Of a stretch of 64,000 nt of DNA, positions 20,854 to 23,535 are shown in pieces. The first letter of the stretch is position 1. Every line of letters begins with the position of its first letter. Source of the DNA: Marinomonas rhizomae (GTDB lineage Bacteria; Pseudomonadota; Gammaproteobacteria; Pseudomonadales; Marinomonadaceae); contig NZ_CP073343.1 of the NCBI RefSeq assembly GCF_024397855.1, forward strand, positions 4,278,001-4,342,000, read 5' to 3'. Under the pieces are notes generated by a model. It saw nothing but the letters and a program-made list of their open reading frames with translations, did not search any database and was not told the DNA's origin. A program made the translations under genes and the position numbers.

Positions 20854-21381
20854 ATGCGCTTACGCTCTCCCTACACCACTCTAAACCTTTTTCTCTTAAT
20901 ATTTTTAAGTGTCACGTCTGTTTCGACCTATGCCGCAGAAAAACCAAAAGGAAGAGTGTTATTAACCGTGTCAGGCGCGATCAACAATACAGACTCAACA
21001 CAGAAATCTAAGTTTGATTTGGCCATGCTAAACCGTTTGCCGCAATACACGGTCACGACCCATAATCCATGGACAAAAGGCCGTCACACTTACCAAGGTT
21101 TTTCGGCTATCGATTTATTCCCAAATTTGGGTAACTCGAACATCATTTTGCAAGTTACCGCACTCAATGAATACATGACTGAAATTCCACTGAGCGACTT
21201 TGCTGACAATGGTGCAATTTTTGCGACTCACATTGATGGCAAACCAATGAGCGTCAGAAATCTTGGCCCTATTATGGTGATCTATCCATTCGACGAACAT
21301 GAAGAGCTAAAATCTGAAATGTTTTATGGTCGTTCTATCTGGCAAGTTGATCGCATTAAGACCACTATTATATCGGAGTAA
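20854..21381 (+). CDS. Exported SUOX-fold-like (molybdopterin-binding-domain-like) protein, no cysteine
   Basis: A 175-residue protein with a signal peptide (hydrophobic core LFLLIFLSVTSV, cleavage near residue 28). The mature part resembles the small oxidoreductase molybdopterin-binding (sulfite-oxidase-like) domain proteins found beside histidine kinases; the most telling segment is VRNLGPIMVIYPFDEHEEL, with RSIWQVDRIKT at the end. The chain contains no Cys, so the Mo-coordinating ligand of real SUOX enzymes is missing and catalysis is unlikely. It lies 2 bp before a sensor kinase, which suggests a periplasmic sensing partner. Family call by eye; function inferred. Confidence 0.6.
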   Translation: MRLRSPYTTLNLFLLIFLSVTSVSTYAAEKPKGRVLLTVSGAINNTDSTQKSKFDLAMLNRLPQYTVTTHNPWTKGRHTYQGFSAIDLFPNLGNSNIILQVTALNEYMTEIPLSDFADNGAIFATHIDGKPMSVRNLGPIMVIYPFDEHEELKSEMFYGRSIWQVDRIKTTIISE

Positions 21382-21383
21382 AC

Positions 21384-23207
21384 ATGGAGCGCTTGTTTAA
21401 AGGGAAGACATGGTTATCCAAATTCAAGCTATGGGTGCTGTATGGCTTCATTGCTTTTATTATTGTGATCACCATCGCGGTGTTCGGTATTATCACCTAT
21501 ACCAGTGACAGCTCTAAACACAACAGCCGTCGCGTTTTTGAGAGCTCTTTGTGGAACACCCTGCAACTGCAAATACAGTCCTATCGCTTCCTAAACTATT
21601 TAATCGCATTAGACGACAGCGATTACCCTTTGAACGGCAACGCTTTTTTTGAATACGATTTATTGATGAGTCGAGTCGACTTGCTTAGACAGGGTGATGT
21701 TGGCTCTCTCATCCGAACGTTTGAAAGCGGACGTACAACGAGACTATTGAATATTATTAATGGTGAATTGGAATTGCTTAGCTTCAATTTATCCAAGTTA
21801 GAAAATGGCGACACGTCTTATCTCCCCAACCTAATTGAACGCATTCAACGTATCGAAGATCAAATCAACGAATTTGTTACCTTGGTGAACAAAGGCAGCA
21901 ATGAGTTCATTAGTAACCAACACAAAACATTGCAGATGAATCTAAATCATATACAGCTGCTTTCCATGGCATTGCTGGTTTGTTTATTGTGCTTATGTTT
22001 TTTTACGGTAAAAGGGTTAACCGAGCTTAAGAATGTCATTAGACGAAATGAAGAGCTCCAGCTAGGTATTCAAGCAGTTAATGAAGACAAAGCCAATTTA
22101 CTCTCTTTCGTCAACCAGGAAATACGTTCTCCAATTAATGCCATTTTAGGAACCGCTAAGACCTTAAACGAATCGGTTTCAAAAAACGAAAAAGACGTTC
22201 TATCAAAGCATATTGAAGAGTCTGGGCTGCAACTACTGCAAACCATAGAAATGCTCTCTGACCTATCACTGATCGATGCGAAAAAGCTAACCCTGAATCC
22301 AACTATTGAGCACTTACAGCGCAGTATCGAAGATTATTTGGCTATTTTTGAGCCTCAAATGACACGCAAAAACTTGCAGAGTATCCTCTACATTGACCCG
22401 CTTTTGCCGAACTATATCAGCCTCGATTTTGTCAGAATCAAAGAAATTATCGTTGCACTGCTACAAAATGCGATTACTCACACCCCGTCAGGGAGTATCA
22501 GTTTACAAATTCGACCCTCGTCCCTAAACGCACCTCAAATGGCGCTTCCAACCGATACAACAGAAAGCAGAGTGCTACAAATAGCGCTTAGAGATACTGG
22601 GCTAGGCATGCCAAACGAGTTACAGCAAAATTTGAGAGTAAACCCATCCCTACCGATGCAAGAAGAAGGACCATTACCAAGCAAAGTCGGCTTAAGTTTG
22701 GCGTTATGTCACAAGTTGGTTTACCTAATGCAAGGCGAACTGCATTTTTCCTGTGCGCCACAAAAAGGCTGTGAATTTTGGGTAGATATTCCTTTTCACA
22801 TACCAACAAATAGCCCAAGTAACGACCCGGAATCAAAAGGCTCAAGCTTCCAATGCCCCGACAATACTCAAGCTTTAGTCATTGAAACAGACACACATTT
22901 GGCTAAAATTATTAGCTTGCAGTTAGCAGCGTTTAACATCGACACCATTCTATCGAAAGATGGCAGCCTGCAAGAATATAAGGACTATGATCTTGTCATT
23001 CTGGGCAACACGCCTCGCTTTGAGCGTGACGGCCATGATGCGCTCCAGCAATGGCATACTAAATCTTGCCCTGTCATCAGTTATCACTCTAGCGCCTTGG
23101 AAAACACAGCGCACCGAGTTATTCCGATCAGCTTCCCATTAACTCAAAGTAAACTAGAACCACTTATTGCTGGGCTATTTTCCTCAAAGGCACATAAATA
23201 TGATTGA
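21384..23207 (+). CDS. Degenerate hybrid sensor kinase lacking phospho-acceptor His and Asp
   Basis: A 607-residue membrane protein: helices at about 13-35 and 190-212 flank a helical periplasmic domain of about 150 residues. The HisKA region reads FVNQEIRSPINAILG, with Gln245 where the phosphorylated His is normally found (codon CAG at 22116). The ATPase domain keeps the N-box Asn (LLQNAITHTPSG) and G1 DTGLGM, but G2 is GLSLAL. The C-terminal 110 residues look like a receiver that lost its key residues: DLVILGNTP has Gly for the phospho-Asp, the acidic pair is E-T, and the Lys is absent. It is probably a pseudokinase or a trans-acting partner. It overlaps the Hpt gene by 8 bp. Confidence 0.8.
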   Translation: MERLFKGKTWLSKFKLWVLYGFIAFIIVITIAVFGIITYTSDSSKHNSRRVFESSLWNTLQLQIQSYRFLNYLIALDDSDYPLNGNAFFEYDLLMSRVDLLRQGDVGSLIRTFESGRTTRLLNIINGELELLSFNLSKLENGDTSYLPNLIERIQRIEDQINEFVTLVNKGSNEFISNQHKTLQMNLNHIQLLSMALLVCLLCLCFFTVKGLTELKNVIRRNEELQLGIQAVNEDKANLLSFVNQEIRSPINAILGTAKTLNESVSKNEKDVLSKHIEESGLQLLQTIEMLSDLSLIDAKKLTLNPTIEHLQRSIEDYLAIFEPQMTRKNLQSILYIDPLLPNYISLDFVRIKEIIVALLQNAITHTPSGSISLQIRPSSLNAPQMALPTDTTESRVLQIALRDTGLGMPNELQQNLRVNPSLPMQEEGPLPSKVGLSLALCHKLVYLMQGELHFSCAPQKGCEFWVDIPFHIPTNSPSNDPESKGSSFQCPDNTQALVIETDTHLAKIISLQLAAFNIDTILSKDGSLQEYKDYDLVILGNTPRFERDGHDALQQWHTKSCPVISYHSSALENTAHRVIPISFPLTQSKLEPLIAGLFSSKAHKYD

Positions 23208-23535
23208 TCACGCCCATCTGAACTCTCTAATCGAACTCATCGGCAAAGAAACCGTTAACAACATACGCTTGGAATTTGTTGAAGACAGCAATGAAAAAAT
23301 CGCTTTGTTGTTACAAGCTTGGGACAAAAGAGATTATCAAGAATTAAGACAGGTTAGCCATTCACTCAAGTCGGCCAGTTTAAACATGGCTATGCAGGTG
23401 TTTGCTAAACAATGTCAGTTGATTGAAGAAGCGGCGGCACAACAAAGTGATCAAGGAGTGCAGGCCATCATGGATAGCCTGCCCGCCACTCACCAGACTT
23501 CACTGAAAGAACTTGATGCATACTTTTCCAAGTGA
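23200..23535 (+). CDS. Histidine phosphotransfer (Hpt) domain protein
   Basis: A 111-residue single-domain protein. The ATG at 23200 overlaps the kinase 3' end by 8 bp and is preferred over an in-frame TTG at 23167 deeper in the kinase. The Hpt motif is intact: VSHSLKSASLNM, with His in place and the usual Lys two residues after the Leu. The rest is helical (AKQCQLIEEAAAQ), as expected for a four-helix bundle. Hpt proteins relay phosphate between receivers of hybrid kinases and final response regulators. Since the adjacent kinase lacks both His and Asp, the phosphate donor must be elsewhere. Confidence 0.8.
   Translation: MIDHAHLNSLIELIGKETVNNIRLEFVEDSNEKIALLLQAWDKRDYQELRQVSHSLKSASLNMAMQVFAKQCQLIEEAAAQQSDQGVQAIMDSLPATHQTSLKELDAYFSK

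Follow-up and report, generated by a model that had tools for sequence, protein, structure and literature searches.

PruR is a SUOX-like periplasmic protein that lacks the molybdenum-ligating cysteine and contacts pterin through Tyr104 and Trp160, and its partners are of two kinds, the DcpA-type cyclic di-GMP (c-di-GMP) enzymes and the DTB sensor kinases, which share a homologous periplasmic domain with a WX7E motif in the vast majority of cases. According to the available portion of the source, the PruR-linked kinases are a recently described class of pterin-signaling proteins whose outputs are little known (PMC13259868). Several other kinases that are dead or non-canonical act by contact, including RcsD, in which an inactive kinase domain is combined with a histidine phosphotransfer (Hpt) domain (PMC13317618, PMC7418988), RetS, which acts on GacS (PMC12148439), and ChrS and DivL (PMC9491836), as far as the accessible parts of these papers describe them. 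Here, we analyze a three-gene cassette of Marinomonas rhizomae (assembly GCF_024397855.1, contig NZ_CP073343.1) located in a window of 64,000 nucleotides (positions 4,278,001 to 4,342,000 of the forward strand), itself part of a one-contig genome of 4.37 Mb. The cassette encodes a PruR-like protein (gene A), a membrane-bound hybrid kinase (gene B), and a stand-alone Hpt protein (gene C). We propose, with a probability of roughly 0.5, that it is a PruR-DTB pterin-signaling operon in which the hybrid kinase has become a pseudokinase within Marinomonas and acts by contact on an active kinase.

The cassette was compared across a main sample of 48 Marinomonas genomes, labeled G000 onwards. Gene B is present in all 48 with an open frame of 589–636 amino acids, which is well beyond chance, while A adjoins B in 45/48 and C adjoins B in 38/48. 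In the window, A ends at position 21381 and B starts at 21384, leaving a 2-bp gap, and the ATG of C at 23200 overlaps the end of B at 23207 by 8 bp, as correctly given, coordinates included, in a preliminary description of this DNA made from the sequence alone. Tight spacing of B and C is general, with the two genes overlapping or ≤46 bp apart in 38/38 genomes.

Gene A encodes a PruR-family protein, predicted from its sequence to bind pterin. It matched the Pfam family PF00174 below the cut-off (5.6e-4), and matched PDB entry 7KOS, which is the PruR of A. tumefaciens in the available text of PMC13259868, at 1.4e-30 with phmmer and at 2.7e-59 with a profile of the A family. Searched against the PDB, this profile retrieved three entries named as pterin-binding and one as an Oxidored_molyb domain protein, together with a weak match to a putative sulfite oxidase. 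Mapped through the 7KOS alignment, Y107 and W163 of A correspond to Tyr104 and Trp160 of PruR, and each is found in 45/45 locus orthologues. The preliminary description had noted that A has no cysteine, with which the sequence agrees (42/45 A orthologues are also without Cys after residue 25), and had portrayed it as a cofactor-free SUOX-fold sensor, a label that is misleading for a protein of the PruR type.

The periplasmic domain of B is related to those of both kinds of PruR partners, with an hhalign probability of 97.7 (E 2.6e-12) against DTB and of 96.4 (E 1.1e-9) against DcpA-type domains. Its motif is WX7Q, which occurs in 48/48 B orthologues and in 86/86 wider relatives (the first 86 of 308 matches, one or more of them partial). 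Because the literature reports WX7E in the vast majority of cases, we class B as a variant and not as a standard PruR-DTB member; the cassette as a whole is, judging by these alignments, a PruR-DTB derivative. A second PruR (A') is encoded elsewhere in 38/48 genomes, in most of them next to an intact paralogous hybrid kinase (P), and WX7E is present in all 33 P rows that cover the motif (34 P rows in all). A charge swap between PruR and the WX7E/Q position was considered, the residue at PruR position 137 being Leu in 35/45 A and Lys in 37/38 A'; this would be a single event and is not claimed. For comparison outside the genus, we used 34 outgroup PruR loci, of which 26 have a kinase beside PruR and 5 a GGDEF/EAL-type protein; the partner gene beside PruR was not recognized in the other 3/34 (L209, L210, and L216). 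A PruR match at E 1e-35 was obtained in 4/274 genomes of the class sample.

The kinase core of B is recognizable in Pfam (HisKA 1.4e-10, HATPase_c 7.1e-12), and residue 245, within the motif NQEIRSP, is a Gln in place of the phospho-acceptor His, as first noticed in the preliminary description. Among the 48 B orthologues this position is Q in 34, H in 5, N in 4, A in 2, S in 2, and K in 1, so that His is absent in 43/48, and it is found in only 2/86 wider relatives. The acceptor His is kept in 34/34 P rows and in 26/26 outgroup PruR-locus kinases (16 + 10). The ATP-binding site of this B retains N362, D404, G406, and G408, including a DTGLGM motif at residues 404–409 (both the Asn and the motif having been reported as kept), along with the third glycine of the GGTG lid. 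The losses in this B extend beyond the acceptor His and the receiver Asp pointed out earlier: also gone are the first N-box Asn (358), the N-box Lys (365), and the first two glycines and the Thr of the lid. Among the 48 B orthologues, N362, D404 (the G1 Asp), and Gly436 survive in 41, 45, and 43 proteins, respectively, while only 2 have the first N-box Asn, 2 the N-box Lys, 1 Gly433, and none Gly434. The N-box Asn and Lys are present in P and in the outgroup kinases, and the P lid reads GGTGLGL. With N362 lost in 7/48 genomes, the G1 Asp in 3/48, the N-box Lys in 46/48, and Gly434 in 48/48, the ATP sensing suggested earlier is doubtful and finds no support as a conserved core of B function. 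Based on these residues, B is a pseudokinase in most Marinomonas species, its activity being judged here by sequence only.

The C-terminal part of B is similarly altered. No receiver match was found in B with Pfam; residues 490–578 gave profile matches to response regulators of the PDB, and the domain aligned with outgroup DTB receivers with an hhalign probability of 93.9 (E 1.6e-7). The acceptor Asp site corresponds to Gly541 (or Asn542, depending on the register) and the Lys site is occupied by Phe. In an alignment anchored on 28 reference receivers, Asp was found in the acceptor column in 10/47 B orthologues (G004, G008, G012, G014, G015, G021, G023, G024, G035, and G046), and no B had either the first acidic residue or the receiver Lys (0/47 each). 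We had considered the Asp lost in all B proteins, as column 541 is Asp in 0/86, and withdrew this on the basis of the receiver-anchored alignment; the Gly-for-Asp replacement previously described thus applies to this B and not to the whole family. As far as these conserved positions indicate, the B receiver is degenerate and not merely Asp-less. Its equivalence to the extra domain located between the ATPase and the true receiver of P was not supported, with an hhalign probability of only 23.6 for that domain versus 87.6 for the true receiver of P and 93.9 for the outgroup receivers.

The five His-bearing B proteins are those of G035, G003, G023, G042, and G033. Apart from its lid, the B of G035 is near-canonical: the acceptor His, the N-box, and the G1 motif are in place, and Asp occupies the receiver position. 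The G1 Asp is lost in the His-bearing proteins of G003, G023, and G042. In a midpoint-rooted species tree of 47 genomes (G016, whose flanking genes were not in the fetched stretch, was left out here, and likewise from the receiver alignment and the rate test below), G035, G003, G023, and G042 cluster apart from the other 43 genomes. Most simply, the His would have been lost once in the ancestor of these 43 and regained in G033, a scenario which depends on the root. The preliminary description would have read close orthologues with a normal His and Asp as a sign of local decay. G035 and G023, which branch early, do combine His with a receiver-column Asp, yet neither looks wholly normal as a kinase: the G1 Asp is missing from G023, and Gly434 and the receiver Lys are missing from both. 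Since these species are also distant (29–30% identity in B), and B is under selection elsewhere, local decay does not follow. A recent origin of B as a copy of P was not supported either, B and P forming separate clades (SH-aLRT 99 and 100) in a midpoint-rooted quick tree of 64 rows, which included 31/48 B and 17 of the P remaining after those of G003, G023, and G027 had been dropped.

Next, we evaluated selection on B. The ratio of non-synonymous to synonymous substitution rates (dN/dS, NG86) was 0.04–0.11 for the whole gene in the 9/14 species pairs that were unsaturated. By region, it was 0.02–0.06 for the periplasmic part (9 pairs), 0.04–0.15 for the ATPase domain (9 pairs), and 0.12–0.36 for the receiver (8 pairs), making the periplasmic part the tightest and the degenerate receiver the loosest; for the C-less pairs tried, whole-gene dN/dS was saturated and not measurable. 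One stop lies within the matched stretch in G021, G024, G043, and G044; as ORF (open reading frame) calling at these loci returned frames of 590–610 amino acids, we interpreted these stops as the natural end of the gene. The open frames in all 48 genomes and the low dN/dS rule out local decay, and B is kept by purifying selection across the genus. Since the active site is lost in most species and B is nonetheless maintained, B probably does something other than phosphorylate, in line with the original suggestion of selection for a signaling protein without the usual autophosphorylation.

In the Hpt protein, the HSLKS motif is kept, and its His, already described as intact in this genome, is found in 38/38 orthologues. 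A candidate phosphate donor is found at the A' loci. In G000, Pfam identifies HisKA, HATPase, and true receiver domains in P, and an HD-GYP gene lies near A' in 30/37 A' loci (29 by motif, and that of G000 by Pfam, with a receiver), on the other strand in G003 and G023. The A'-P-receiver-HD-GYP neighborhood is likely a phosphorelay leading from pterin to c-di-GMP. Two further observations were made on these loci. In L133 and L134 (G043 and G044), A' has no kinase beside it and its pterin-contact Trp is replaced by Ser, as in no other of the 38 A' rows, and we regard these as decaying PruR proteins. Several genomes also contain a second P-like hybrid kinase, with frames of 873–918 amino acids that are 35–43% identical to P, the match spanning the periplasmic region.

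C is absent from the B locus in 10/48 genomes, and all 10 are among the 16 genomes without a working P; conversely, all 32 genomes scored as P-positive have C (Fisher 1.2e-6, without correction for kinship). Among the C-less genomes, P was not found in six (G007, G012, G026, G030, G033, and G046), only a distant relative (36%) was found in G042, P is interrupted in G003 by a stretch resembling, by eye, a transposase insertion, it is frame-broken in G023, and in G017 (L115:2015-4132) its receiver is deleted, whereas its kinase core and the HD-GYP gene beside it are kept. Using a P query at E 1e-60 and scoring at most 21 candidates per genome, we obtained no P-like hit covering the sensor part in G007, G012, G019, G026, G030, G031, G033, G035, G041 (77% complete), G043, G044, and G046. 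G013 (P split over two contig ends) and G027 (frame break near the P start) were counted as having P. A relocated C was not identified: the Hpt profile gave no match at all in 6/10 C-less genomes, and in the other four (G003, G007, G023, and G046) matched Hpt stretches only inside frames of at least 792 amino acids. In addition, C is present in 22/22 genomes in which P has a receiver and no Hpt motif (the motif served to call absence, with a Pfam check in G000, G009, G017, G020, G045, and G047). On the species tree, C must have changed 6 times and P 8 times, and P-less branches make up 0.447 of the tree length, such that 6/6 would be reached by chance with a probability of about 0.008 in a rough count. 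From this co-loss we infer that P charges C, and the pattern suggests that the preliminary description was right to invoke another kinase as the donor for the Hpt.

In the mechanism we propose, pterin-loaded A would bind the periplasmic helix bundle of B, which would relay the change across the membrane by contact, and not by phosphate, with an active hybrid kinase, as for RcsD and RetS. This contact could take the form of a heterodimer or a dimer-of-dimers of the dimerization and histidine phosphotransfer (DHp) domains. The phosphate reaching C would come mainly from P, linked to the second PruR, as the co-loss suggests. P usually lies next to a protein of the HD-GYP family (c-di-GMP phosphodiesterase type), and where P has no Hpt of its own, C would provide the missing relay step toward it. 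P and a BarA/GacS-type kinase are both candidate contact partners of B; because B persists without P and C, it must have another partner besides them, and gating C is probably not its only role. By analogy with described systems, B is probably a non-catalytic kinase working in an RcsD- or RetS-like mode, and most likely controls an active hybrid kinase by contact.

With regard to the ligand, the same genome encodes a FolM-type dihydromonapterin reductase (330.9 bits, for an NCBIfam cut-off of 249) and two FolB-family genes, and no match to an aromatic amino acid hydroxylase was found in it. Tetrahydromonapterin may thus be made without this usual consumer, a gene content which fits, and does not prove, a pterin signal. 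A more elaborate version, which we consider doubtful, is that the pterin signal is read twice in a single split phosphorelay, with the A'-P pair giving the phosphate, the A-B pair providing a purely allosteric second reading via a kinase-dead receptor whose WX7Q contact is re-tuned, and C, encoded alongside that receptor, relaying from the P receiver to HD-GYP; if so, A and A', as PruR paralogues, would allow different pterin species or redox states to be compared.

Several observations weigh against our proposal. The phosphotransfer residues are not wholly lost across the genus, with His in 5/48 B and Asp at the receiver site in 10/47. The C-P association draws on no more than 6 changes inferred for C, and independent-pairs tests had 1–3 informative pairs, all in the same direction and not significant. 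C is also present alongside the 9 P proteins that have their own Hpt motif, and is kept in 6/16 P-less genomes. B, meanwhile, is retained in 10/10 C-less genomes and in 16/16 genomes without a working P, and its terminal branches, taken relative to the flanking genes in 47 genomes, showed no acceleration in genomes lacking C or P (median 3.56 vs 4.51, p 0.29 and 0.20). Neither C nor P is thus the sole partner of B, and the gating of the Hpt proposed earlier cannot be its whole task. This same persistence bears on the possibility that A, B, and C form a single module with B as an RcsD-like hub, in effect RcsD split in two genes, positioning C by the P receiver and gating transfer from P through C to HD-GYP. 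The parts do resemble those of RcsD (inactive kinase domain, ABL, and Hpt, in the accessible text of PMC13317618), C co-occurs with P, the B and C genes are always close, and the RcsD family model matches B at 1.3e-18, although the BarA and TorS models score higher. As the Hpt is a separate gene here and B survives its loss at an unchanged relative rate, we hold this hub only tentatively. B could instead act in the manner of RetS, inhibiting or modulating a core hybrid kinase such as BarA/GacS by capping the DHp domain of this partner and leaving C and P as a side branch, which would account for its maintenance whatever becomes of both. In the AlphaFold2 model of B (mean predicted local distance difference test score 81.4, predicted TM-score 0.58), the top Foldseek match is the RetS kinase region (8e-15, TM 0.72 of the target), RetS chains rank high in the PDB profile search, and BarA is the best NCBIfam match (2.5e-33). 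GacS and then the ordinary kinase HK853 come close behind in Foldseek at similar E-values, however, with DivL also listed, so that the RetS/GacS likeness may reflect mere general GacS-like ancestry; B moreover carries a DcpA/DTB-type domain and not the sensor domain of RetS. We consider this possible, with no better odds than the hub.

Two further explanations concern the activity of B itself. The protein could still be catalytic through an unusual acceptor, or act as a phosphatase. The residue next to the lost His, E246, is Glu in 42/48 B, the ATPase domain is constrained (dN/dS 0.04–0.15), and G035 still has the kinase motifs described above, together with the receiver-site Asp, His being found again in G033. 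The uneven retention of ATP-site residues speaks against it, with the N-box Lys kept in 2/48, Gly434 in 0/48, N362 in 41/48, and the G1 Asp in 45/48, and we judge a catalytic B improbable. Finally, B might be a redundant DTB kinase that is slowly decaying throughout the genus, with pseudogenization under way, as could be read into the loss of different catalytic motifs in different clades and into the loss of A and C in some species; against an open frame in 48/48 genomes, dN/dS of 0.04–0.11 (0.02–0.06 in the periplasmic part), and an invariant WX7Q, such a decay is very unlikely.

The coordinates of the cassette, of the main features of B and C, and of the A' locus are listed in the table. 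The cassette is flanked by what we take to be an opp transporter operon on one side and, on the other side and the opposite strand, by a GAF-type gene, presumably a free methionine-R-sulfoxide reductase, followed by what we take to be phoU-pstB-pstA. The cassette evolves faster than these neighbors: between G000 and G018, amino acid identity is 74% for A, 83% for B, and 77% for C, whereas the GAF-type gene reaches 90% and the proteins of opp, phoU, and pst reach 96–99%.

Table. Features of the cassette (window positions) and of the related loci encoding A' and P-like kinases (positions in their own genomes).
Feature	Coordinates	Strand	Evidence or location
Gene A, PruR-family periplasmic SUOX-like protein, predicted pterin-binding, 175 aa	20854..21381	+	phmmer PDB 7KOS 1.4e-30; Y107/W163 45/45
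Gene B, DcpA/DTB-type pseudo-hybrid kinase (by sequence), membrane, 607 aa	21384..23207	+	Pfam HisKA + HATPase_c; AlphaFold2; Foldseek
Gene C, stand-alone Hpt, 111 aa	23200..23535	+	Pfam Hpt 4.6e-10
B WX7Q (W57-Q65), periplasmic helix, in place of DcpA/DTB WX7E	21552..21578	+	Ortholog columns
B HisKA (DHp) region, residues 236-299	22089..22280	+	Pfam PF00512
B Gln245 codon (CAG), phospho-acceptor position	22116..22118	+	Ortholog alignment
B HATPase_c region, residues 350-471	22431..22796	+	Pfam, column tallies
B degenerate receiver-like domain, ~residues 497-600	22872..23182	+	hhalign; PDB profile matches
B Gly541-Asn542, receiver acceptor position	23004..23009	+	Receiver alignments
C His54 codon (CAT)	23359..23361	+	His in 38/38 orthologues
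A'	2318101-2318610	minus	Own genome C1, locus L061 (2628-6611; own genome 2314627-2318610)
P	2315672-2318092	minus	Own genome, locus L061
HD-GYP protein with receiver	2314627-2315682	minus	Own genome, locus L061
Second P-like kinase, sites	G003:C1:2835944, G009:C12:16945, G020:C1:790525, G042:C37:21647, G045:C3:139334

PruR-DTB pairs, RcsD-like hubs, and Hpt proteins are already known, and the apparently new part is a PruR partner with WX7Q that is kinase-dead genus-wide. Our literature searches returned no account of the Marinomonas cassette or of such a partner, although the primary PruR survey (Greenwich 2024, PNAS), which was outside the search, may list them. A kinase-dead receptor under strong selection, occurring in species with and without the Hpt and P, makes the role of a receptor histidine kinase without phosphorylation directly testable, and the cassette points to a link between pterin and c-di-GMP via a phosphorelay.

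Overall, the cassette is closest to the PruR-DTB systems of Proteobacteria as presented in the accessible part of PMC13259868, with which it shares a PruR gene directly upstream, a DcpA-type periplasmic domain, and a hybrid kinase layout, and from which it differs in the absence of the acceptor His from 43/48 B, in having WX7Q and not WX7E, and in the separate Hpt gene downstream. The A. tumefaciens PruR-DcpA pair likewise combines a PruR homologue bearing the Tyr and Trp pterin contacts with a homologous periplasmic receptor domain, whereas the output of DcpA is a diguanylate cyclase/phosphodiesterase and that of B a predicted pseudokinase. With RcsD, as outlined in the available text of PMC13317618 and PMC7418988, B has in common a membrane protein architecture with periplasmic input, an inactive kinase domain, a pseudo-receiver, and an association with a working Hpt; here, however, the Hpt is a separate gene, not fused, and absent in 10/48 genomes, and the input is PruR and not IgaA/RcsF, such that no membership is claimed. 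From P. aeruginosa, RetS offers the top-ranked solved fold for the B kinase core, closely followed by GacS and HK853, and signals by DHp contact, and HptB is an Hpt that likewise stands alone and may receive phosphate from several hybrid sensors, although RetS and HptB have been argued not to be cognate (PMC12148439, PMC2904497, in the parts accessible), and B differs from RetS in its sensor domain and in the loss of its acceptor residue. Finally, DivL of Caulobacter, also recovered in the fold search with B, is a pseudokinase form of histidine kinase that controls another kinase, in the portion of PMC9491836 available, as we propose for B with a different sensor and a different partner.

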